In this document: positions 37,432-50,224 of the stretch, in pieces
Position numbering within the stretch: position 1 is the first letter of the stretch
Layout: each line of letters begins with the position of its first letter
NCBI GenBank assembly: GCA_017451225.1
Contig: JAFSPZ010000004.1
Coordinates: 1-55,511, forward strand
Reading direction: 5' to 3'
Origin: Muribaculaceae bacterium
GTDB taxonomy: Bacteria > Bacteroidota > Bacteroidia > Bacteroidales > Muribaculaceae
Length of the DNA stretch: 55,511 bases
Notes under the pieces: generated by a model
Seen by the model: only the letters and a program-made list of their open reading frames with translations
The model's database searches: none
What the model was told of the DNA's origin: nothing
Translations under genes and position numbers: made by a program

Positions 37432-37902
37432 TTATTTCCAGTTTTTATAGGGATTCTTCATGAGCATGGAGTTGTAGTACTTGGGATCGCCAGTAACTTC
37501 CTCGCCAAGCCAGGCGGGACGGTCAAAGGCGGCATCCTCGCTAGGCAGCTCCACCTCGGCAACGGTCAAGCCCTCATTATCGCCATAGAACTCGTCAACC
37601 TCAAAGGTGCGCTCACCGGCTTTCACCAGATAGCGTGTCTTGTCGATAACACCAGGCTCGCAAATCTTAAGCAAGTCCATCACCTCCTCGGCGGGAATCT
37701 CTTTCTCCCACTCAAAGCGGCTTGCTCCACTCTCGTTGCCAATGCCCTTAACAGTGATAAAGCCTTTCTCACCTTTTACACGCACGCGTACAGTGCGTTC
37801 AGGTACCGAACTAAGATAACCTTGAGTGATGCGGGTTGCCTTGAAGGCCTCATCCTTGAATTCTCCCTTTACAAGGAATTTTCTTTCTATTTCTTGTGCC
37901 AT
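37432..37902 (-). CDS. CYTH-domain protein (putative inorganic triphosphatase)
   Basis: A 156-residue CYTH/triphosphate-tunnel protein. The signature EIERKFLV is at 4-11, followed by RVRVKGEKGFITVKG (alternating basic residues lining the tunnel), RFEWEKEIP, KTRYLV and FEVDEFYG, and the acidic EVELPSED. Small bacterial members hydrolyse tripolyphosphate with Mg2+. The length is standard for the CygB/ygiF N-domain class. It lies between another CYTH-like gene upstream and the anion symporter downstream, all on the minus strand, which suggests a role in phosphate metabolism. Confidence 0.87.
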   Translation of the reverse strand: MAQEIERKFLVKGEFKDEAFKATRITQGYLSSVPERTVRVRVKGEKGFITVKGIGNESGASRFEWEKEIPAEEVMDLLKICEPGVIDKTRYLVKAGERTFEVDEFYGDNEGLTVAEVELPSEDAAFDRPAWLGEEVTGDPKYYNSMLMKNPYKNWK

Positions 37903-38015: not shown

Positions 38016-38660
38016 TTAATTAGCAAGGGGTTTATTAATCATACCAATCACGCGCTTGATAGCTTGCAGATAGTTGATGTTCTCAACTCCCTCAAGACCT
38101 ACGTCGGCGATGGTTTTCTTGATATCCTCAATCTCGGTGCTCTCGCTGTTGATGGTGCGAACCATGGCTCCGTTGATGTAAACCTCGCCAGTCTCGCAGA
38201 TGGTATCGTTGACCATGTAGCCATAGCGAGCCTTCTCAACCTTAACGGCTTGAAGGTCGGGGTGCTCGTCAATCATCTGAAGGAACTCCTCAAGGGTATA
38301 GGTTTCTTTGGTGAGCTCGGGCATGCCTTCAACCTTGAAAGCAGGGAACACCTCGTTCTTTAGAACCTGAGCGCTAATAGGGAACTCGCCCTTCATCAAT
38401 GGATTCCACTGCTCAAGGCCGTCAACTTCCTGAACGAAAGTTTTGATATCCATCTTACCGTCGCGAATCTTTGTATTATTCACGTCGTTGGTACGGCTCA
38501 CGATGTAGGTCTCGGTGCTGTGACGCTCCCACACTTTCTCAGGAACTGGAGCACTAAGACGAGCCATACGCTTTCCTGCCTCGCAGAAGCAGCGGCCAAA
38601 ACTGCGGAACTCAAAACGTGGTTTAGAAATTTCACCTATCTTTAATTCTTCTTTTGCCAT
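38016..38660 (-). CDS. Probable second CYTH-like protein
   Basis: A 214-residue cytoplasmic protein. The CYTH fold is suggested by RFEFRSFG near the N-terminus, ETYIVSRTNDVNNTKIRDGKMDIK at about 50-73 (KIR...DIK is the basic tunnel pattern), GLEQWNP, then GEVYINGAMVRTINSES and a closing VENINYLQAIKRVIG. The classic ExExK at the start is replaced by FEFRS, so catalytic competence is doubtful. The Cys pair in GRCFCEAG is notable. It lies 113 bases upstream of the clear CYTH gene and just after a terminator. A divergent triphosphatase or a VTC-like polyphosphate-related protein is possible; this is inference. Confidence 0.6.
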   Translation of the reverse strand: MAKEELKIGEISKPRFEFRSFGRCFCEAGKRMARLSAPVPEKVWERHSTETYIVSRTNDVNNTKIRDGKMDIKTFVQEVDGLEQWNPLMKGEFPISAQVLKNEVFPAFKVEGMPELTKETYTLEEFLQMIDEHPDLQAVKVEKARYGYMVNDTICETGEVYINGAMVRTINSESTEIEDIKKTIADVGLEGVENINYLQAIKRVIGMINKPLAN

Positions 38661-38771: not shown

Positions 38772-39635
38772 TTACTGAACTACAGTTGGGTCTTCGGCAC
38801 CAGTGTCGGGATTCTTAGTGCCCAGAGTCTTATCGGCAATCATGAACTTGCCAGTGCCATTAGGACAGCGGCTCCAAGTCTGCTTGTTCTCTGTGAGAGA
38901 TTGGTTGCCCCATCCATCAAGTTTCTCGCCACGCTCAAACTTAGTAACGAGAGTGCTGTTAGGATCAAACACTTGGAAGAGTACGCTCTTCTTGGCCGAG
39001 AGACCCTTAGTCATTGGGCGTGGGTTAGGACCACTACCGCCCTCTCCAGGAGTATTCTTGGCTCCAACAATGCAGAAGTAGCCATGGCCCATGATAATCT
39101 CGCCAGCTTCGCCAACCCAAACGTCGTCGGCCTCGTCCTTACGAATAACTACGCCCTGCAGTTTGATTGGATCGTCACCATTATTGTAGAGTTCAAGATA
39201 TTTCTCGTTGTCGCCACCAGCGCCATAAACCTCGTTGATAACGAGCTTAGAGTAGTCGCTTGGCTTGTCGCCCACGGTGTAATCTTTCTCAACAGTGCTT
39301 GTAAAACCTGCTTCGTTAGTAATAGTTACTGTGTAGTTAACCTTGGTGCCGTCTTCTTGTGCAGGAATAGTGGCGGTGAAGGTCTTGCCGTCGCCAACCA
39401 TATCAACCTCGTCAACGAAATCACCGTCAACTGAATAACTCATAACGGCTTTTGTAACTTTCAGAAGTCCACTAACCTTGGCGGTTACAACCACATCTTC
39501 AAATGAAGTGGGAGCATCGGGAGCAATCGAAACGGCCTCGATGGTATTAGGGCCCTCATATACTTTGTCTTCAACGCATGATGTAATCGCAAGTGTAGCG
39601 ATAATGAGCGCGAATGCTAATTTTATAGTTCTCAT
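38772..39635 (-). CDS. Lamin-tail-domain lipoprotein
   Basis: A 287-residue lipoprotein precursor: signal peptide with lipobox ending at Cys20 (AITSC). Residues about 30-125 form one or two Ig-like beta-sandwich units (APTSFEDVVVTAKVSG and VNYTVTITNEAGFTSTV). Residues about 130-275 are a lamin-tail domain (KLVINEVYGAGGDNEKYLELYNNGD, typical opening; WSRCPNGTGKFMI near the end). It is 33 bases after the porin gene and precedes a strong terminator, so it is co-transcribed with the porin and may sit with it at the outer membrane. Its function is unknown. Confidence 0.8.
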   Translation of the reverse strand: MRTIKLAFALIIATLAITSCVEDKVYEGPNTIEAVSIAPDAPTSFEDVVVTAKVSGLLKVTKAVMSYSVDGDFVDEVDMVGDGKTFTATIPAQEDGTKVNYTVTITNEAGFTSTVEKDYTVGDKPSDYSKLVINEVYGAGGDNEKYLELYNNGDDPIKLQGVVIRKDEADDVWVGEAGEIIMGHGYFCIVGAKNTPGEGGSGPNPRPMTKGLSAKKSVLFQVFDPNSTLVTKFERGEKLDGWGNQSLTENKQTWSRCPNGTGKFMIADKTLGTKNPDTGAEDPTVVQ

Positions 39636-39668: not shown

Positions 39669-41033
39669 TTAGAAGTTAACCTCTAAGCGAAGGCCTAACA
39701 TACTGTAGTTCACACCACCTTTGCCCTTGGCTTCTACAATCTTGGTGTAGTCGGCAGTGGGCTTGCCGTCGGCATCGTGGCCAGTGAAGAGCTTGCCCTT
39801 ACCGTTGGCATAGCGGTCGTTGTTAGTGTACTGATAGTTAAGAACAATCTTAACGCTGTTGTTAATCCAGTAGTTCAGACCCACTGTGAAGTTCTCACCT
39901 GCACCACCATATACGTCCTTGTTGTTGAGGTTGAGGTAGTCATAACGAAGTGCGAGCTCAATGTCACCCCACTTGCGTCCACGCTGTGGCTGAGTAAACT
40001 CGCCCTCAGCTGTGTTGAAGCGTTGCTTACCACCAAAGAGCAAGCAAGAAGCGTGAACATACCAACCACCAAAGTTATAGGTATTCTTGGCTGCATCTAC
40101 GCTGTTGCGAATCCACTCGGTCTGGAGGCGGGCAGGACCATAGTAAGCTGCACCCTCAAGACCATAGAGAAGAGTGTGGTCAACATCTTTGATCACGTCG
40201 GTGTCAAGATATTTCTTGCGGTTGATGCTGGTAGCATTACGGGTGCTGAAACGCTCACCACCCCACTCGCCAGTAGCAACGTCGGTCTTGGGAGTGCGGT
40301 AAGAAATCTTACCACCCAGGTAGAGACCCCAGCTGCGATCCTTAGCATAAGGCATCCAGCCTACTTTACCGGTGAACGAGTAACCCTGGTTGCGGCCAAA
40401 ATCCTTGTTGTTGTCCTGAACATAGGTCAGCTCTTCCTCGCCAGCGATGGTCTGGAAAAAGACACCACCAGTGGCGCGGAAGTGATTGAGCAGGTAAGAA
40501 ATCTGCAAACCAATGTGACGCGAAGGAACAAGAGCTTTACAAACCATTGGACGCTCCATGAAGGTCAGATAACGCGACGAAGTGGTCTGCTCCATCGAGA
40601 AATCTTCCTTGAAGTTACCAGCTTTGATTGATACATTCTTGATACCGTCAAACTGGACAATAGCGTCCTTGAGCTCAAACTTGCCATCGGCAAAATCTAC
40701 GTCAACCTCACCATACCAGTTGTGTGGAAGACGGGCCTTAATAGCAAAACGAGCACGACGAATAGAGGCATTATTGCCAATGTCGTTGTAATCTTTGTTA
40801 TTACCAAAAAACATAGCACCATCCACTTGCACACGGTTGTCAAACCACAGGCGATACTCCTTGTTCTTCGACTCAAACGTGAGGATGTTGTTGCGCTGCT
40901 CCGAGATCAGCTCTTCACGATCGACTTTCACGCCATACTGATTGTAGACGGCGGTCTCGTCTGATTCTTGTGCCCACACACTGCCCCAAGCAGATAGTGC
41001 CAGCACGAAGGATAGGGTTAATAATTTTTTCAT
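39669..41033 (-). CDS. Phosphate-selective porin O/P family protein
   Basis: A 454-residue outer-membrane porin. The ATG at 41033 opens the signal peptide MKKLLTLSFVLALSAWGSVWAQ, chosen over one 12 bases earlier. A short coiled part (EELISEQRNN) precedes the barrel, which has the Porin_O_P features RVQVDGAMFFG, ASIRRARFAIKARL, and MERPMVCKALVPSRHIGLQ, plus a C-terminal Phe (LRLEVNF). OprP of Pseudomonas binds phosphate, OprO polyphosphate or pyrophosphate; family members in Bacteroidota are broader. Position between a PiT-like regulator and phosphate-linked genes supports a phosphate or polyphosphate role. Confidence 0.85.
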   Translation of the reverse strand: MKKLLTLSFVLALSAWGSVWAQESDETAVYNQYGVKVDREELISEQRNNILTFESKNKEYRLWFDNRVQVDGAMFFGNNKDYNDIGNNASIRRARFAIKARLPHNWYGEVDVDFADGKFELKDAIVQFDGIKNVSIKAGNFKEDFSMEQTTSSRYLTFMERPMVCKALVPSRHIGLQISYLLNHFRATGGVFFQTIAGEEELTYVQDNNKDFGRNQGYSFTGKVGWMPYAKDRSWGLYLGGKISYRTPKTDVATGEWGGERFSTRNATSINRKKYLDTDVIKDVDHTLLYGLEGAAYYGPARLQTEWIRNSVDAAKNTYNFGGWYVHASCLLFGGKQRFNTAEGEFTQPQRGRKWGDIELALRYDYLNLNNKDVYGGAGENFTVGLNYWINNSVKIVLNYQYTNNDRYANGKGKLFTGHDADGKPTADYTKIVEAKGKGGVNYSMLGLRLEVNF

Positions 41034-41074
41034 TGTAAAAAACATTTAGTTAATAAAAAAAGGTATTTACTATA

Positions 41075-42646
41075 TTATATCATTTGAAGATATTCGACAA
41101 TGTTGGTACTGCGATCAAGCTTGAGCTTGCGGCGAAAACGGTAGCGGCTCACCTCCACGCTCTTGGGCTCAACGTTGAGCATACCAGAAATGTCTTTGCT
41201 GGAGAAGCCCAGGCGCAACATAATAGCCAGGCGCTTCTCCTTCTCCGACAAGTTGGGACAACGCATGAGCAGGCGGCTCACGAAATTCTTGTGAAGATCC
41301 TCTACTTGTGTGTAGAATTGGTCCATTTCACCAGTGAGCCGCATGTTCTCGTTGAGTTTTTGTGCTGTATCGCACAATTGTTGGCGCAGCTTTTCGACGT
41401 CTTCCTCTTTGGACAAATCATTGAGGTTCTTGCTCAAGTCCTCAAGATACTGACGCTGCTGCTTAATATATAATGAAAGGTTTACTAGCTCTTTGTGCTT
41501 GATGTCAATTTCATTGGTCATCACGTTGAATTGAGATGTAACCGCGGCGACATCAAGGCGATTGCGTTCATCACCGGTCTCAGTGCTATGGGTGAGCTCG
41601 TCATCAAGCGCTTTCTTGGTCTGGTTGTGCTTGCGCTGCTGCTTTGAATACATCATTACAAACAAGCAAGTGACAAGAATAAAACATGTGATAATCAATA
41701 TGAGAATCGAGTTTTTCACTATTGACATCATTATTATCACAAGTAAGAAAGCGATCAAGGGGGTTGCAACAGAGATACTCATCAGATTGACCAGACTGCG
41801 ATGAGAACCATTAGAAATCTTGCTGCATTCGCGCAACTGGCTGGGCGAGACAATTATTGGAGTCATACCAAGCAACAGTGTGCCGGCGATATTACCTGCC
41901 AGCAACACCGTGATTAGGGCATAGAGCGAAGGCAGCGCCCAACTCATGGGTTTTGCCATCGAGTTCTCGTTGCGAAGCACTGCTGTCATGGGAATTACCA
42001 TCGCCATACTCAAGACTGCCATAAAAATGAACAAGAATGGAAGCCAAGTGACATCAATCTGCGTCAAAAACGACGACAAAAAAGGAGAGGAAAAGAGTGC
42101 GAAATTTACAGCAATGGTTAATCCGCCCAAAATTATTCCAGCAAGTGCCAAGCGCTTCATGTATAGATTCTTGAGCAACAAGTGACGGTCGGTTTTGAAA
42201 ATGATACTGTCAAACAAGCGCTCATAGAGCAAAAAAAACAGCAGCCCCAATAATGGTGCTGCCACCAATGACAGCAAAGCAGCTGTCATAGAGGGGTGAA
42301 AGGGCCAACTGCCGTTATAGGCAAGACCGGCTAAAGCACCCCAGAAGGCCGTCACTGCCGATGTGTACTGGTCTGCGCTACGCACAATAACGACAGTCAT
42401 AATAATGGCACACATTATAATATATGCCTGTGAGATGGTTAGGTTATTCACCTCTGAATGCGTCTCGTCATTGATAAAAAGAACAAGCAGACATAGGGCC
42501 GCAACGACAAAAAATTGCAATAACCCCATGACTCGTGTCGATATCAAGTCGCGGATGTGGATACCCAAGAAACTGACGCCATTCTCTCGGTATCCAAGCC
42601 ACGCTCCTATCATAAGGAGAAGCAATATCGACATTGTGAATTCCAT
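41075..42646 (-). CDS. PiT-like membrane protein fused to a LuxR-type DNA-binding domain
   Basis: A 523-residue protein. Residues 1-345 hold about nine to ten membrane segments. Parts of these recall PiT/PHO4 phosphate transporters in layout (STRVM...; YTSAVTAFWGALAGLAY; LLSLVAAPLLGLLFFLLY), though the ND motifs for transport are not seen. Residues about 365-455 are a coiled coil (KQQRQYLEDLSKNLNDLSKEEDVEKL). Residues about 455-523 are a LuxR/GerE-like helix-turn-helix (LSEKEKRLAIMLRLGFSSKDISGMLNVEPKSVEVSRYRFRRKL). It follows a DUF47 gene by 22 bases, the usual partner of PiT. It likely senses at the membrane and binds DNA; the ligand is unknown. Confidence 0.75.
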   Translation of the reverse strand: MEFTMSILLLLMIGAWLGYRENGVSFLGIHIRDLISTRVMGLLQFFVVAALCLLVLFINDETHSEVNNLTISQAYIIMCAIIMTVVIVRSADQYTSAVTAFWGALAGLAYNGSWPFHPSMTAALLSLVAAPLLGLLFFLLYERLFDSIIFKTDRHLLLKNLYMKRLALAGIILGGLTIAVNFALFSSPFLSSFLTQIDVTWLPFLFIFMAVLSMAMVIPMTAVLRNENSMAKPMSWALPSLYALITVLLAGNIAGTLLLGMTPIIVSPSQLRECSKISNGSHRSLVNLMSISVATPLIAFLLVIIMMSIVKNSILILIITCFILVTCLFVMMYSKQQRKHNQTKKALDDELTHSTETGDERNRLDVAAVTSQFNVMTNEIDIKHKELVNLSLYIKQQRQYLEDLSKNLNDLSKEEDVEKLRQQLCDTAQKLNENMRLTGEMDQFYTQVEDLHKNFVSRLLMRCPNLSEKEKRLAIMLRLGFSSKDISGMLNVEPKSVEVSRYRFRRKLKLDRSTNIVEYLQMI

Positions 42647-42668
42647 AGATGATTTATGATAATAAAGA

Positions 42669-43316
42669 TTAGTTGTTCTGCTTTATAATCATGATTGACA
42701 AGTGATCAGCTACGCGTACAGCCTCCTCGGCTAGTTCCTCAACGTGCAATGTAAAGTAACGCAAGTGGAACTTCTGGCTGAGTTTGAAATTATCCATTTC
42801 GTGAAAGACGTGACGCTTAATTGATTGAGCAAGTTTACTTACCTCTTTCTCAAAGAAATAAATGCGATGGATTTTCTCAGTCACAAATCGAGGGGCCTTG
42901 AAATAGTCGCGAGAAGCTTGAATAGTGCCTTCCACTGCCAAACCTGTGATTTCAACAAGTTTCAAAAAGTCGACATTTAGCTCCGACGGGAAGAACGGAA
43001 TCTCGATATCATATTGCCACAAGTTTTTGTAAAGCAAGTTGACAATCATGTCAAGGCGCTCAAGCAACTGCATGATCTCTACACGCTGGTCCGACACAAG
43101 GGAGTAGGTGTAAAGTTCGTTCTCGATTGTTCGGCGCAACTCAATTGTGTTGTCTCGCAACTTGGTTATCGATTCCAGATTGTCATCAAAATCTTTCTTA
43201 TTTCCGTCAAGATAGTTTTTGATGCCGCTCTTATAGGTGAGCACGCATTCGTCAAGATAATCGAGGAAACTATCAAGGTCGCTTATGGTCTTATTTGTCT
43301 TCTTAAATCCAAACAT
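42669..43316 (-). CDS. DUF47 (PhoU-like) protein
   Basis: A 215-residue all-helical protein of the PhoU-like DUF47 family. MFGFKKTNKTISDLDSFLDYLDECV is the family opening, and the helices carry the spaced acidic residues (E/DxxxD) that bind metal in PhoU. These proteins normally accompany PiT phosphate transporters and regulate them. The ATG at 43316 is chosen because an earlier in-frame ATG at 43346 lies inside the -7 promoter element. It heads the operon with the PiT-like regulator, porin and lipoprotein genes. Confidence 0.85.
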   Translation of the reverse strand: MFGFKKTNKTISDLDSFLDYLDECVLTYKSGIKNYLDGNKKDFDDNLESITKLRDNTIELRRTIENELYTYSLVSDQRVEIMQLLERLDMIVNLLYKNLWQYDIEIPFFPSELNVDFLKLVEITGLAVEGTIQASRDYFKAPRFVTEKIHRIYFFEKEVSKLAQSIKRHVFHEMDNFKLSQKFHLRYFTLHVEELAEEAVRVADHLSIMIIKQNN

Positions 43317-43343
43317 AGCATTTATCGCCTTTGTTATTAAATG

Positions 43344-43375
43344 CAAAAATAATATGTAAATTTTAAAAATGCAAA
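43344..43375 (-). promoter_or_regulatory. Promoter for the DUF47-regulator-porin operon
   Basis: On the minus strand TTTG (43372-43375), 20 bases, then TATTTTTG (43344-43351). It fixes the DUF47 start at 43316, giving a short leader. The region 43380-43545 beyond it is AT-rich and shows nothing else. Confidence 0.72.
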
Positions 43376-43557
43376 TACGTTGTGTGTTTTAACTTTTACA
43401 CCAATAAGACAATGTAGTGTTTTTACAAAATAGATATTATTGAAAATCAGAAATATATATTTATTATTGTAGTGATAGTAAAATCGCACAAAAAATTAAT
43501 GTAGTGTTTAAGTATCTTTATTGTATACATAAGCAATAACAAAAAACATAAAAAAAA

Positions 43558-43585
43558 TGTCTGGCAAGTTCACTCTTGCCAGACA
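43558..43585 (-). terminator. Rho-independent terminator after the amylase gene
   Basis: An 11-bp stem (TGTCTGGCAAG and complement) with a 6-base loop, followed on the minus strand by seven T residues. It is 32 bases past the amylase stop. Confidence 0.88.
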
Positions 43586-43616
43586 CTGAAATAAGGTTTT
43601 TGAGTATTGATTGTTT

Positions 43617-45863
43617 CTATTTTTTCACTAGCACACGATACCCCTTGGCATCAAGTAGGAATGTACTATTTGCAGCAAGAGTCATGTTACTCTGACTGGC
43701 ACCGCTAGTTATCGTGCTACTGTCGAGCCACAGCGAGTATTCACCTGCAGGGATTCCACTAATAGTTGCAGTCGCGTCAAGATTTCCAAGGTTGAGCAGT
43801 ACAATCACTGTGTTATCGCCGCTTTTCTTAGTATAAGCAAGCACATTGCCGTTGTCGCTATTCAGGAAAGTGGTGGTAGTTCCATTGGCCAGAGCAGGCT
43901 GAGTGTGGCGCAGTGCAACTAGAGTGGCGATAGTGTTCTTCATCTTGGCATCGGTAGAGTTCCAGTTTATCTTGGTATCATGGAAATAATCCAGAATCTG
44001 GTCGTTGCCAACTTCCTGCCCGTTATACAGCAAGGGCATACCATATATTGTGAAATAGAGGGTAGTTAGAGCATATTTGTTGGCGCCATACATACTTTCA
44101 ATGGTCTTGCCGCCGTCATTGAAATTCTGGTCATGGTTAGTGAGATAGGTCATGCGGTCAAAGCTTTTGTCTTGACTTTCATTAATGAACGATTGGCAAT
44201 AACCCTTTAGTGTGCTTGCGCTGGTACCAGTGGGACCGAATCGCTCGAGTTTTCCACTTTGGAAATTCCATGCATAGTCATAGTCGAATCCCACATTGAG
44301 TAATTTATTGGCATCGTGCACTATGTCGGCCTCAGCAACCATTGTGATAGTCTTACCACCAGCGTAGTTGCGCAGCATTGGGATGGTGCTTGCCCAATAA
44401 CTGCCTGGGATGGTAGGACTCGACACATAGTCGCAACGGTAACCGTCGACGCCTGCCTGGTCAATCCAGAATCGAAGGCAGTCGTTCATCGCCTCGCGCA
44501 AGGCGGCATTATTGTAGTTGAGCTCATACACGTCGCCATAGTTGTTTGGGTGTACCATCTGGCCATTTTGGGTGGTGTAATACTCGGGATGTTCAGTCAC
44601 CCACACAGCATTGGTAGCAGTGTGGTTAGGAACCCAATCAAGGATTACTTCCATACCAAGTTCATGGGCACGGTCGACTAGACTCTTCAACTGGGCAATA
44701 GAGCCGTAGCTAGGATTTGTCGCCTTGAAATTGGTTGCAGCATAGGGGCTATTGATACCTCCACCGCGTGGATAGATGGGCATAAGCCACAGGATGTCTA
44801 TGCCCAAGCTTCGCAAGTCATTGAGCTTGTCGCTAGCAGCTGCAAATGTACCAGCGCTTGTGAAGCTGCCCACGTTCATTTCATAAATCACACGATTCTT
44901 GCTACTTGCAGCTGTGGTCCACGTCACATCAAGTGGCTGTGGCTCGCCTGGTGTCACAACATCTCCCGTAGGCTGCGAACTGGCATCCGACACGGTATAT
45001 GAGCCATCGCCTGCCACTCTCACATAGATATCTTTATCATAGCTGAAATTCTGCATCAAATCGACCTGACTGCCATTGTTATTATTGTTGAGAATCCAGT
45101 TAGTACCGCTTGTGGTGTAATAGATTTTGGGCAACTCAAACACATACCACAGTTCGCCATCTATAGTCTTGGTCGAAGTGTAGTGCTCGCCTGGCCATGC
45201 CGCATTCACTGGTGCTGCATTTTTCCAAACATACAAGCAATAGTCGCTCCACCCCAATTCGCTATGGAGATAGACCACTGGGGGCGGTGTGCCATCGTCA
45301 TCAATAATATAACTGTAAGAACCTGCCGAGCCGCTGATGGTGAGGTATATGTCGTTCTCCCCCATCGTATAGTCGCTCATAAGATCAAGCTGACGGTTAG
45401 TACCGCCATTCACAGCAGCATAGTTGTTGGCGATATAATTAAGAGCGGTATTGTAATAGTTGTCGCCAAGCTCAAACATATAATAGCTCTTGCCTTCTTT
45501 TGTCACAGTGCCGCTGTGGTGAATGCCAGGCCATGAGGTCAAGTTGGCATCGGGCCAGGCATATAGTGCCATATCGCCCCAACCGGCGTTATCGCATATG
45601 TAAATCTTACCATGCTTGGGAACTGGAGTGGTATTACCCAATATAATATTGTAAATAATGGTGATGTCGGTTGCAGTCACCACACCATCTCCGTCGACAT
45701 CGGCAGCAGTTGCATAGGTGAGGTCGTTTCCCAACAATACGTTATAGATGGCTGTGACATCTACCGAAGTCACGACATCGTCGCCGTTAACGTCGCCCAA
45801 AACGGCCGCCCGACTTACTCCGAATAAAACAAGCAAAAATAAAACCAGCGAATTTTTTTTCAT
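43617..45863 (-). CDS. Secreted GH13 alpha-amylase with dockerin-like and starch-binding-like modules
   Basis: A 748-residue exported enzyme. Signal peptide 1-19; two dockerin-like calcium repeats at about 23-75 (DVNGDDVVTSVDVTAIYNVLL and DVDGDGVVTATDITIIYNIIL); two CBM26-like modules at about 85-187 and 196-292 (CDNAGWGDMALYAW, WPG motifs); then the GH13 barrel. Catalytic residues are Asp478 (GVDGYRCD), Glu511 (TMVAEAD) and Asp578 (LTNHDQN), with DWVPNHT at 409-415. A C-terminal beta domain ends the protein. It would hydrolyse alpha-1,4-glucan outside the cell. It is not beside susC/susD genes here. The dockerin-like part matches the protein at 32011. Confidence 0.9.
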   Translation of the reverse strand: MKKNSLVLFLLVLFGVSRAAVLGDVNGDDVVTSVDVTAIYNVLLGNDLTYATAADVDGDGVVTATDITIIYNIILGNTTPVPKHGKIYICDNAGWGDMALYAWPDANLTSWPGIHHSGTVTKEGKSYYMFELGDNYYNTALNYIANNYAAVNGGTNRQLDLMSDYTMGENDIYLTISGSAGSYSYIIDDDGTPPPVVYLHSELGWSDYCLYVWKNAAPVNAAWPGEHYTSTKTIDGELWYVFELPKIYYTTSGTNWILNNNNNGSQVDLMQNFSYDKDIYVRVAGDGSYTVSDASSQPTGDVVTPGEPQPLDVTWTTAASSKNRVIYEMNVGSFTSAGTFAAASDKLNDLRSLGIDILWLMPIYPRGGGINSPYAATNFKATNPSYGSIAQLKSLVDRAHELGMEVILDWVPNHTATNAVWVTEHPEYYTTQNGQMVHPNNYGDVYELNYNNAALREAMNDCLRFWIDQAGVDGYRCDYVSSPTIPGSYWASTIPMLRNYAGGKTITMVAEADIVHDANKLLNVGFDYDYAWNFQSGKLERFGPTGTSASTLKGYCQSFINESQDKSFDRMTYLTNHDQNFNDGGKTIESMYGANKYALTTLYFTIYGMPLLYNGQEVGNDQILDYFHDTKINWNSTDAKMKNTIATLVALRHTQPALANGTTTTFLNSDNGNVLAYTKKSGDNTVIVLLNLGNLDATATISGIPAGEYSLWLDSSTITSGASQSNMTLAANSTFLLDAKGYRVLVKK

Positions 45864-46003: not shown

Positions 46004-46107
46004 CAGTGTTAATTGATAGTTAACGCTTTAGACTTTTTAGAATTTTGATTTTTGTTTAATCGGCAGTGTACATTCCTGTACATGCGCCAATAAAAGAAAG
46101 TAACGAC

Positions 46108-46617
46108 ATGAAAAAGATTATTGCTATGATTGCTCTTGGCCTCTTTACTTTTAGTGCCACCAGCGGTTTTTATTCTAATGCCCAACTAAAGAAAGTTGAG
46201 TCAGCTAAAGTTCAGAAGGCCACACCTGTTAAAGCAGAAAAGGCAGCTGATGTAAAAGCTAAACCATGCGAGATGCAGAAAACTGAATTTAAACGCAGTG
46301 AGGTTAAAGACACCAAGCAAGTTTGCAAGGAGAAAGCCGGTGAATGCAAAGAAGGTGCATGCAAAGAAAAGGCTGAAGAGTGCAAGAAGGCTGAAGAGTG
46401 CAAGAAAGCTGCTGAGTGCAAGAAAGCTGCTGAGTGCAAAGAAAAAGGCGCTGAGTGCAAGGACAAAGCAGCTGAGTGCAAAGGCGATTGCAAAGGCAAA
46501 GAGGCTGGACATCAGTGCGCTCACAAGTCTCCATGCTGCAAGGAAGGTGCCTGCAAGATGGATGGCAGCTGCGGCAAGGAAAAATGCAAACCTGGAAGTG
46601 AAAAGTGCTGCAAATAA
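46108..46617 (+). CDS. Secreted Lys/Cys-rich repeat protein
   Basis: A 169-residue protein. Signal peptide (MKKIIAMIALGLFTFSATSG..., about 1-26), then a Lys/Ala-rich part, then from about residue 73 repeats of AEECKK, AAECKK and related units, ending in a Cys-dense tail (CCKEGACKMDGSC...KCCK). I count 19 Cys, mostly 6-8 residues apart, and very few hydrophobic residues. This could bind metal or form a disulfide-linked coiled structure; metallothionein-like function is only a guess. An earlier in-frame start would prefix 14 residues before the signal, so 46108 is chosen. It is monocistronic with its own promoter and terminator. Confidence 0.75.
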   Translation: MKKIIAMIALGLFTFSATSGFYSNAQLKKVESAKVQKATPVKAEKAADVKAKPCEMQKTEFKRSEVKDTKQVCKEKAGECKEGACKEKAEECKKAEECKKAAECKKAAECKEKGAECKDKAAECKGDCKGKEAGHQCAHKSPCCKEGACKMDGSCGKEKCKPGSEKCCK

Positions 46618-46724: not shown

Positions 46725-49208
46725 CTATTCGCGAAAGTACACGCGCTTTACACGAGGCGAGATGCTGGTGAGGATTTCATAGCCTATTGTACCGCGAGCA
46801 TCACTAAGCTGGTCAATGGGATTGTGACGTCCAAAGATTTCCACTTTGTCACCCAGTTCGCATTGAGCATCGGTAATATCCACCATGCAAGCATCCATGC
46901 AGATGTTTCCAACGATTGGGCACATTGTGCCATTAACCCAAACCTTAACGGCTCCATTACCAAAGTGGCGGTCCATGCCGTCGGCATAGCCTATCGACAC
47001 TGTGGCAATGCGAGAGTCACGCTCAAGCAGGCCTCTACGGCCATACCCTACCATTGTGCCGGCCGGCCATTCCTTGATGCTGATTACCACGGCCCTCAGC
47101 TCTGCCACTGGCAGCAATCCATCTTCGCTTCCATCAAAAACTGTCTTAATACCATAAAGTCCTACACCCATGCGCACCATGTCCATTTGATACTCGGGGA
47201 ATCGAACTATTCCATTGGTATTCAAGATGTGTTTTAATATTTTGTGCGAGAAGTTTGCCTGAAGTTGAGTAGCGCAAATCTCGAAATATTCCACTTGCTC
47301 GCGGGTGAAATCGTCCTGCTCAGGCTCATCGGCAGAGCTCAAATGCGAGAACACGCTCACGGGCATAATCACGTCCTGCTCAAGCAACAAATCCACAAGT
47401 TCGGGAATCTGCTCCAAAGTGAAACCCAAGCGATGCATGCCGCTGTCTATCTTGATGTGAACAGGGAAGTTCTTAGCACCATATTTGCGTCCTTCCTTGA
47501 TGAGTTGCCGTGCTTCCTCAATGCTGTAAACCTCGGGTTCAAGATAGCGGTCAAACATCGCCTTATAGTTCACAGTCGATGGATTAAGCACTATAATGGG
47601 AAGCGTGATTCCAGCTTTGCGCAAGTCCACTCCCTCGTCCTGAACAGCCACGGCAAGATAGGTAGCACCACAATCCTGAAGCGTCTTAGCAATCTCATAA
47701 GAACCTGTTCCATAGCCCGAAGCCTTGACCATCGCCACAGTCTTGGTGTTGAAATCAACTTTTGACTTAAGGAACTTGAAATTATGAGCAAGAGCATTGA
47801 GGTCGATTTCTTCAACCGTTTGATGACGGCTAACTTCAAGCATTTCCACAATTTGGAAGAACTCATATTTTGAAGCGCCCTTGACGAGCACAGTTTCATT
47901 GTCAAAGTCGCCCTGGCTCATTTTCTCAAGGAACTCACTCGTAGACTCAAAGAAGAGATCACGACCTGAATTGAAATACTTGCTGTAATGGCACATTTCG
48001 GGGCCAACACCTATCAAACGGGTAATTCCCTTGCTTCGCAAGAGCTCGCTCACACGAATATAGAGTTCGTCCTCAACAAATGTCTCGGGCAACAAATCAC
48101 TAAGTATCACCGTGGTGTGCTGATGCGGATTGCAGCGTCGCAACATGAAGTCAAGGGCTGGCGACAGCGAATTATAGTCGCTTGTATAGCCATCGGCGAT
48201 AATCGTGCACTCGTTCACACCCTCAATAACGTTGATGCGTGTTCCCACTGGAGTGAGGCGTTGCACACGTTCGACTATCACGCTAGAGCTCAACCCCAAG
48301 TAAAGCAGCACGGCCACGCATGTCGACACGTTCTCAAGGTCGCGGTCACTAGTAAATGGAACATCGAGCACAAACTCGGTTTCCTCATGAACGCATTCCA
48401 TTATCGAATGATTGTCACGCTTGACAACATTTCTCACATAGAGCCACTTATCCTCGTCCTTGCGCGACCAACCCACGTCTTGAGCCACATAGAGAATGGG
48501 GTCGATTGTGCTGGACACCAATTCGTCGTCGGCACAATAAACAATGCTCTCGCAGCTGTTTAGGATTTTTGCTTTTTCCTCTACTTTTTCCTGCATCGAG
48601 GCAAAACCTTCGTTGTGCTCGTCGCCTATGTTGGTGATAATGCCTATTGTGGGCCTAATCATAGCCTGGACGCGAGCCATTTCGCCGGTTTTGCTAACAC
48701 CAGCCTCGATTATTGCCAACGAGGTGTTGTCGTCGAGATCCCACAACGATAATGGTACCCCTATCTGTGAATTATAGCTTCGAGGCGACCTTACGATGTG
48801 GTAGTCATCCTTCAAGAGCTGATAGAGCCATTCCTTGACGGTGGTTTTGCCCTTGCTGCCAGTAATGCCAATGATGGGGATGTGGAAACGCTTGCGATGG
48901 TAGGTGGCGATGGCCTGCATGGCGTCGAGCGTGTTGCTCACACGCAAGAAGTTGGCCTCTCGCATCGCATGGATATCGATGTTGCCACTGTACTCTATCA
49001 CAAAGTTCCTAACACCCTTATTATAAAGGTGCTTTACATATCGGTGACCATCATCGTTCTGCGTAGCGATGGCAAAAAACAATGTCTCGGCAGGATATGT
49101 AAGTGACCGCGAATCGATGAGCAGTTGACTCACCTCGGCGTTCTTGTCACGAAGTTCACTGGATTCAACACCCAGCACTTGAGCTATCTCTTGAATGGAA
49201 TATTTCAT
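46725..49208 (-). CDS. Bifunctional MurF ligase / alanine racemase
   Basis: An 827-residue fusion typical of Bacteroidota. Residues about 1-455 are MurF, which adds D-Ala-D-Ala to UDP-MurNAc-tripeptide: ATP loop GITGSKGKTT at 114-123, and NIGDEHNEGF in the central domain. Residues about 460-827 are a PLP-dependent alanine racemase: the PLP Lys is Lys495 in VAMVKASGYGTG, with HIKIDSGMHRLGF and IGYADGMDRH further on. The fusion supplies D-Ala and uses its dipeptide in the same pathway. The ATG at 49208 is chosen since upstream residues in the frame are low-complexity repeat. The gene is 65 bases after the GSCFA gene. Confidence 0.93.
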   Translation of the reverse strand: MKYSIQEIAQVLGVESSELRDKNAEVSQLLIDSRSLTYPAETLFFAIATQNDDGHRYVKHLYNKGVRNFVIEYSGNIDIHAMREANFLRVSNTLDAMQAIATYHRKRFHIPIIGITGSKGKTTVKEWLYQLLKDDYHIVRSPRSYNSQIGVPLSLWDLDDNTSLAIIEAGVSKTGEMARVQAMIRPTIGIITNIGDEHNEGFASMQEKVEEKAKILNSCESIVYCADDELVSSTIDPILYVAQDVGWSRKDEDKWLYVRNVVKRDNHSIMECVHEETEFVLDVPFTSDRDLENVSTCVAVLLYLGLSSSVIVERVQRLTPVGTRINVIEGVNECTIIADGYTSDYNSLSPALDFMLRRCNPHQHTTVILSDLLPETFVEDELYIRVSELLRSKGITRLIGVGPEMCHYSKYFNSGRDLFFESTSEFLEKMSQGDFDNETVLVKGASKYEFFQIVEMLEVSRHQTVEEIDLNALAHNFKFLKSKVDFNTKTVAMVKASGYGTGSYEIAKTLQDCGATYLAVAVQDEGVDLRKAGITLPIIVLNPSTVNYKAMFDRYLEPEVYSIEEARQLIKEGRKYGAKNFPVHIKIDSGMHRLGFTLEQIPELVDLLLEQDVIMPVSVFSHLSSADEPEQDDFTREQVEYFEICATQLQANFSHKILKHILNTNGIVRFPEYQMDMVRMGVGLYGIKTVFDGSEDGLLPVAELRAVVISIKEWPAGTMVGYGRRGLLERDSRIATVSIGYADGMDRHFGNGAVKVWVNGTMCPIVGNICMDACMVDITDAQCELGDKVEIFGRHNPIDQLSDARGTIGYEILTSISPRVKRVYFRE

Positions 49209-49210
49209 AC

Positions 49211-49248
49211 TTGTTGTCGGTTGTCGGTTTTCAGTTGTCAGTTTTTTT
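49211..49248. repeat. Simple GTTGTCGGTTGTCGG repeat
   Basis: Four imperfect TTGTC(A/G)G units and a T-run in the gap between the GSCFA and murF-alr genes. It matches the arrays at 10781 and 37907. Confidence 0.5.
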
Positions 49249-49273
49249 AAATTTAGAAATCCCAGATTGTGCA

Positions 49274-50224
49274 TTATGCATTTATGTAAGGGTATTCTTT
49301 CTTCAAGTTTGCAATCACGGCTTCGGTATCGGCGTTGAAGCGGGCAACCACATCGGGATTGTTGCTCATGGGGCGATGTTTCAACCGCTTGCTCACTCGC
49401 TCGCATCGTGCTATCGCCTGAGTGGAACGGTCGTCAAAATAGGTTGCCTGAAACGTCTGCCAGATGTACTCAATAGCGACATCACTGGGATGCACCATGT
49501 CGGCAGTATAGAAGCGGTAGTCGCGCAAGTCGTCAATAACAATTTCATAGGCTGGAAAATAACCCGACCACTCTTTATTGGCCCTAACCACATTGTTAAC
49601 CGCCACGCGCAACACTGCTTTGCTCAACGAGTTCATTTCCAGACCGTCGGCAATGTGACGGATGGGGCTCACTGTAAACAGCACCCGCAGCTCGGGATTG
49701 AACTCGTGCAGACGGGCCATCACGGCATTTAGAGCCTCGGTGCATTCTTCAACGCTTGCAAGGCGACGAGTGAATTCATGTTGTGGAACCTTGTGGCAGT
49801 TGTTCACCACCTCGCCTGTGTCGCGACGACGATACACCACTGCTGTGCCCAGCGTGAGCACCAGAGTCTTGCACTGGCGCAAATGATTGTGGGCAACTTT
49901 TATGCTGTCATTCATGCGCTCGAGAGCAGCGTCTTTGTTTGCCATCGAGAAACGTGAGTGAAAATCATAACAGTTCCACACCCCATTGGCAAGAAAGAGG
50001 TCCATCCCCGCCACAACCTCACAATCAATGAGCTTGTGAACCGAGCTAGCGATGCTCAATGGGTTGAAGATGGTGCCAAATGGGTTGACCACCACATCGA
50101 CCATGGCATCTTTCAACCTTGCTCCTATGTTGTCGCTGAAACACGACCCCATGAGCATCATCTTGTCGCTGTGACGCATGAAGTTGTCGCCCTCGCGAGG
50201 ATGTATCGTTGTCCGGAATTCCAT
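49274..50224 (-). CDS. GSCFA-domain protein
   Basis: A 316-residue protein with the defining MGSCFSDNIG motif (25-34) of the GSCFA family, related to SGNH hydrolases. Other conserved parts are NPFGTIFNP, LTLGTAVVYR and FTVSPIRHIADG (residues about 187-198), and a DMVHPSD near 235-245 that may hold the Asp-His pair. It often sits next to murF-alr in Bacteroidota, as here, so a cell-wall or polysaccharide esterase/transferase role is suspected but not proven. It has its own promoter. Confidence 0.85.
   Translation of the reverse strand: MEFRTTIHPREGDNFMRHSDKMMLMGSCFSDNIGARLKDAMVDVVVNPFGTIFNPLSIASSVHKLIDCEVVAGMDLFLANGVWNCYDFHSRFSMANKDAALERMNDSIKVAHNHLRQCKTLVLTLGTAVVYRRRDTGEVVNNCHKVPQHEFTRRLASVEECTEALNAVMARLHEFNPELRVLFTVSPIRHIADGLEMNSLSKAVLRVAVNNVVRANKEWSGYFPAYEIVIDDLRDYRFYTADMVHPSDVAIEYIWQTFQATYFDDRSTQAIARCERVSKRLKHRPMSNNPDVVARFNADTEAVIANLKKEYPYINA

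Follow-up and report, generated by a model that had tools for sequence, protein, structure and literature searches.

What kind of protein stands behind a DUF47 gene when the place expected for a phosphate transporter is taken by a chain that ends in a DNA-binding domain? Most of what is known about phosphate sensing in bacteria concerns the Pst-PhoU-PhoR-PhoB system, and how the kinase reads transport is still debated. The stretch analysed here (the window) is 55,511 nucleotides of a Muribaculaceae genome (assembly GCA_017451225.1, contig JAFSPZ010000004.1), whose reverse strand encodes, between positions 41075 and 43316, a 523-residue protein and a DUF47/PhoU-like partner 22 bp before it. A sequence-only reading had described the larger protein as a membrane part, a coil, and a DNA-binding domain, and the open reading frames (ORFs) and profile matches bear this out. 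GerE (PF00196) matches residues 465-518 at 27.6 bits (Pfam cut-off, 23.5), which makes the protein a member of the LuxR/GerE family, and PhoU_div/DUF47 matches the partner at 36.4 bits (cut-off, 24.4). A simple scan finds eight hydrophobic segments, and the LuxR-type helix-turn-helix (HTH) is C-terminal. The protein appears to be the descendant of a fusion between a PiT phosphate transporter and a LuxR-type regulator, a form that many Bacteroidales still carry. It seems to have lost the key motifs of the transporter and kept the DNA-binding switch.

The fusions came to light in a search of 295 genomes of the order with the window family as the query. This search matched proteins of about 580 residues, each of which on reading proved to consist of a PiT transporter joined to the coil and LuxR region of the window family. 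One fusion matches the PiT structure TmPiT (6l85) at an E value of 8.8e-24, covering both repeats. In a 17-member alignment (A2; 12 fusions, L086, and four window-type proteins), GerE matches all 17 members and PHO4 matches 12, equal to the number of intact fusions. A fusion-profile search of 393 genomes found, apart from the window and G378 (one with an internal stop), at least 22 whole-length fusions, a lower bound because only three candidates per genome were scored, and 2 further fusions lying in two stretches of one frame. When 395 genomes were drawn across the phylum, no full-length fusion except the window's own was found at E 1e-100; 12 others matched over the PiT part only, and 7 loci were returned. 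Four of these (L188-L191) passed a motif filter, and no LuxR-like end was seen in them by eye. L191 and the phylum rows with frames of 492-528 residues are other Bacteroidota PiTs, with C-terminal extensions unlike LuxR.

Thirty loci were fetched, and 22 of them (L140-L158, L160, L162, and L163) hold a complete fusion including the PiT part. The DUF47 partnership that had been proposed holds throughout, as a DUF47 gene lies upstream on the same strand in all 22 (gap of -4 to 205 bp). A Porin_O_P gene follows downstream in 20; there is none at L157, and at L163 the contig breaks off. The window protein shares both the coil-LuxR region and the order DUF47-fusion-Porin_O_P with this family and is therefore orthologous to the fusions by position as well as by sequence. 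Because it has no recognisable PHO4 domain and the intact fusions have one, it represents a derived branch. A string of lipoprotein, 214-residue protein, and CYTH protein lies within the stretch at L145, L149, L154, L160, and the degenerate locus L159, as well as in the window's clade. CYTH-like proteins (recognised by eye from MAxEIERK and MPKEIERK starts) also lie near plain DUF47-PiT operons (L175, L178, L179, and L183-L185), so the association with CYTH extends beyond the fusions.

The ND transport motifs had been reported missing, and they are. GYRENGV (residues 18-24) stands in the place of GANDAAN, and the former GANNIAN lies around N181 (IAVN-FAL). An ND-type pattern is absent from both repeats in all seven degenerate loci (L159 and L164-L169), and the second half is shortened. 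Among degenerate, fusion, and plain PiT rows, S96, G103, and S267 are invariant, and P131, G134, H155, N181, T295, and P296 are nearly so. At L152 the first motif is partly changed (GSKDTVN) and the second is intact, and at L160 the first is lost and the second intact; possibly these are separate steps of decay.

A scan of our collection gave 14 loci, in rumen-type Muribaculaceae, Prevotellaceae, or Bacteroidales metagenome-assembled genomes. Thirteen aligned over the whole or nearly the whole query at 46-83% identity, and at L015 the match was confined to the C-terminal part. Full-length matches are present in 20 of 101 genomes of the genus and in 2 of 59 genomes drawn from the family, both of the same genus. 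For 15 pairs, the ratio of nonsynonymous to synonymous change (dN/dS) was about 0.07-0.19 for the membrane half, 0.04-0.10 for the coil, and 0-0.05 for the HTH, with dS near saturation and one HTH value not computable. The whole protein is under purifying selection. Given the full-length relatives and the low dN/dS, this is not a chance ORF.

Upstream of DUF47, a CACTACA-like direct-repeat array precedes a promoter-like pair in 21 loci of the genus, which include two same-genome pairs (L014/L166 and L036/L167). Across 23 fusion upstreams (the 22 complete fusions and L161, where the contig ends within the fusion), there are 50 CTACA copies compared with 9.8 in shuffles and 7 on the other strand, and CWCTACA has 30 copies in 18 loci compared with 1.3 in shuffles. 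Repeat distances cluster at 22, 32, 43, 54-55, and 97 bp, which corresponds to a 10.8-bp period. When the number of sites was kept constant, none of 2000 random placements was as well phased, either for the 23 loci or with one locus per family (15). This control replaced an earlier one (0 of 131 shuffles), which was dropped because the shuffles held about 2 pairs compared with 54. Of 12 plain DUF47-PiT operons without LuxR, two have CTACA and none has CWCTACA (one-sided p 2.6e-6, counts; L187 was excluded from this set since no DUF47 ORF was found there). A phased pair is present in 11 of the 23 fusion upstreams and in none of the 12 plain operons (p 0.0055). CWCTACA is likewise absent from 17 upstreams of a 760-residue PiT type and from all seven upstreams of TPR-LuxR genes, some of them short. 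In the PiT tree, plain and fused PiTs are intermixed (5 changes), and the link between array and LuxR domain is therefore not confined to one lineage. These patterns suggest that the window protein binds the array.

We propose the following explanation and would give it a probability of roughly 0.7 as a whole. In the ancestral form, a PiT transporter would be extended by an additional membrane helix and, on the cytoplasmic side, by a coiled coil that leads to a DNA-binding domain of the LuxR type. PiT presumably ends outside the membrane after twelve helices; an extra hydrophobic segment follows the PiT part and would place the coil and the HTH inside the cell. Phosphate, or a phosphate compound, would set the conformation of the transporter, and this conformation, probably together with the DUF47 partner, would alter how the DNA-binding domain dimerises. 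The protein would bind the CTACA direct repeats, phased with the DNA helix, that precede its own operon (DUF47, the protein itself, Porin_O_P, and neighbours). The operon would thus be controlled from the membrane without a kinase or response regulator. Intact fusions may be transporters that are read out by the attached domain. In the window's clade, where the Na/Pi-site motifs are replaced (ND to RE), other transporters, NptA among them, would take over uptake, and the sensor-only descendant probably controls its own phosphate-related operon. The earlier idea of a transporter turned membrane-bound transcription factor is sustained in part. Fusion ancestry, synteny, motif loss, purifying selection, and the conserved phased array with its absence from plain PiT operons are seen in the sequences; loss of transport, the topology, binding of the array by this very protein, the role of DUF47, and the signal are inferred. 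It had also been suggested that phosphate or polyphosphate may be read directly without a histidine kinase. No histidine kinase domain was among the matches listed in the profile searches, and phosphate or a phosphate compound is the presumed signal.

A loss of transport could be afforded because the genus has other Pi transporters. NptA-type Na/Pi cotransporters are present in 99 of the 101 genus genomes, the window's own included, and PstB was found in at least 2 of 101 (not all candidates were scored). PHO4 occurs in 12 and the window protein in 20 of the 101, with no genome common to both. We do not read this as mutual exclusion, as the genomes are too few to weigh and partial.

A rather unlikely reading is that transport persists in the window protein with another substrate, such as a different anion or a phosphate ester, which would make it a transceptor rather than a sensor only. 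Such a protein would also keep its membrane half under purifying selection together with the scaffold residues, the new R-E motif at the first ND site is conserved in most of the genus, and the porin is retained in the operon. This reading has to contend with the seven degenerate loci devoid of an ND-type motif, with L014, which reads GYRG and lacks even the Glu, and with the shortened second half, and the Arg in place of Asn would disable the Na/Pi site. A membrane half that is a mere anchor from a decayed PiT, with the signal arriving via the coil or DUF47, is less probable still: it does evolve faster than coil and HTH, but purifying selection still acts on it, and its former substrate regions include stretches that hardly vary within the genus.

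The array raises a separate doubt, since it could be the box of another phosphate regulator, with the PiT-LuxR protein acting elsewhere. PhoB-like proteins also bind direct repeats in helix register, and the repeats here stand at multiples of about 10.8 bp. B. fragilis has a working PhoRB system (PMC3547664). We nevertheless consider this improbable, as the array tracks the LuxR domain and CWCTACA is missing from plain DUF47-PiT operons and from the upstreams of the 760-residue type. Within one genus the fusion L162 contrasts with the plain L185, and within one genome L142 (one CTACA) contrasts with the plain L186 (none). The paired pattern is also rare in the window's own genome, unlike a broad Pho regulon.

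Several observations weigh against the proposed descent and autoregulation. The fusions were matched in the order search only from about position 290 on, and the PiT likeness claimed for the first half is confirmed only in part. The predicted model of the membrane half has a PiT fold, and the fusion relatives point the same way, but HMMER finds nothing for this half, PHO4 (PF01384) does not match the protein up to E 1, and no PiT appeared in the PDB profile search. Nor does PHO4 match anywhere in the window's own genome. The Foldseek comparison suggested earlier gave no match at E<=0.001 for the second model, with 6l85 outside the 50 rows. AlphaFold2 run on a 14-row alignment without PiT rows gave a pLDDT of 43.9 and was discarded, so the good model rests partly on assumed homology. 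The membrane half reached E 0.41 with its own family's 760-residue PiT type, which we did not use as support. The tree has long branches, and its 94/84 branch is not starred; only 2 independent LuxR/array contrasts lie on starred branches. Five of the 22 fusions have fewer than two CTACA copies, one of these with only 99 bp upstream. No clear second target was seen in the own genome: two of four paired matches are the operon itself, one is intergenic (G000:C19:3036-3085), and one reads as coding by eye. The reversed-pattern control also gave 3, so a wider regulon is not claimed. The own genome is 85.5% complete, and its PstB search scored 23 of 47 candidates, which makes absences soft. In S. 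aureus, PitR-PitA contact was not observed in a two-hybrid assay (PMC11705898).

The window-family profile matched only HTH rows among PDB sequences (best E, 0.066) and was set aside. A polytopic null set held residual PiTs in its first version, one scoring 51.1 against the fusion profile; in the second version L082, L085, L084, and L079 were named as residual PiTs and 28 rows remain, with the PiT-piece-like L075 kept and several rows being the same protein at different loci. At C19:3036-3085, a CTCTACA pair 43 bp apart lies by eye between FKBP-like and AraC-like genes and may be chance.

The membrane half is linked to PiT transporters (PHO4; TmPiT 6l85) by descent and by its predicted fold, and the DUF47 partner and the scaffold residues are also in common; the window protein differs by the missing PHO4 match and ND motifs and by the added LuxR domain. 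CbrA/CrbS-type proteins (an SLC5 transporter with a histidine kinase) also combine a secondary transporter and a signalling output in one polypeptide, and CbrA transports histidine (PMC7096432; PMC13022988). Here the output is a DNA-binding domain, no kinase was among the listed matches, the membrane part is PiT rather than SLC5, and the window form is without transport motifs. CadC is likewise a membrane-integrated transcription factor that reads transporter conformation, that of the lysine permease LysP (PMC5936718). These are two proteins, and CadC is ToxR-like, with a single span and an N-terminal winged HTH, a plan not found in the window protein, which is one polytopic chain with a C-terminal LuxR HTH. 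Bacteroidota TPR-coiled coil-LuxR regulators (e.g., L098-L101) have a related coil and LuxR region, but a TPR-like input (by eye) replaces PiT and their upstreams are those without CWCTACA. Eggerthella has polytopic membrane LuxR-type regulators with a many-helix part and a C-terminal LuxR HTH, as in the window protein, and we know of no PiT descent or DUF47 partner for them. No description of a PiT-LuxR fusion was found in titles and abstract beginnings of the open-licence literature. The window protein is kin to membrane one-component regulators and transceptors, and it unites, within a single polypeptide, an origin from a transporter with a DNA-binding domain.

More tentatively, with chances that we put somewhat below even, the fusions may form a class of Bacteroidales phosphate transceptors, in which a working PiT is the membrane part of a transcription factor and its transport state is read onto helically phased operators. 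The window's clade would have shed transport to become a pure sensor, with Arg-Glu for Asn-Asp standing in for bound sodium and fixing the signalling conformation. If true, one molecule would both sense and respond, and how transport is read out could be tested on a single protein, its defined operator, and natural forms ranging from motif-intact to motif-free. It would also show how a transporter turns into a pure receptor and open a way into phosphate control in Bacteroidales of the rumen and gut.

Table 1. Coordinates of the operon genes, protein domains, and upstream elements in the window
Feature	Positions	Strand	Remark
PiT-derived membrane-bound LuxR-type regulator, 523 aa (probable)	41075..42646	-	gene including stop codon
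Degenerate PiT membrane domain (predicted), residues 1-332	41651..42646	-	
Long helical, probably coiled-coil segment, residues 333-460	41267..41650	-	presumably on the cytoplasmic side
LuxR/GerE helix-turn-helix domain, residues 461-523	41078..41266	-	
DUF47/PhoU_div-like protein	42669..43346 (listed ORF)	-	PhoU_div match; likely start ATG at 43316
Porin_O_P outer-membrane porin	39669..41045	-	PF07396, E 6.5e-40
Lipoprotein-like protein with lamin-tail domain	38772..39635	-	PF00932; lipoprotein call by eye from start
214-aa conserved protein	38016..38660	-	no Pfam match at E 0.01
CYTH protein	37432..37902	-	PF01928, E 5.9e-15
Putative operator repeat CACTACA, copy 1	43500..43506	-	
Putative operator repeat CACTACA, copy 2	43468..43474	-	32 bp on
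Putative operator repeat CACTACA, copy 3	43413..43419	-	55 bp on
Promoter-like pair ATTTGC ... TATTTTTGCA	43342..43376	-	resembles the Bacteroidota promoter consensus

The gene string extends beyond 41075..43316, with the porin, the lamin-tail-domain protein, the 214-residue protein, and the CYTH protein downstream on one strand. Directly upstream of the operon lies an alpha-amylase with dockerin type I and CBM26 domains (43617-45863, reverse strand), and by eye only a terminator-like inverted repeat with a T run is seen near 43559-43586. Farther on are a 183-residue protein rich in Glu, Cys, and Lys with many EC-K repeats (46066-46617, forward strand) and a single protein with Mur ligase and alanine racemase domains (46725-49406, reverse strand).
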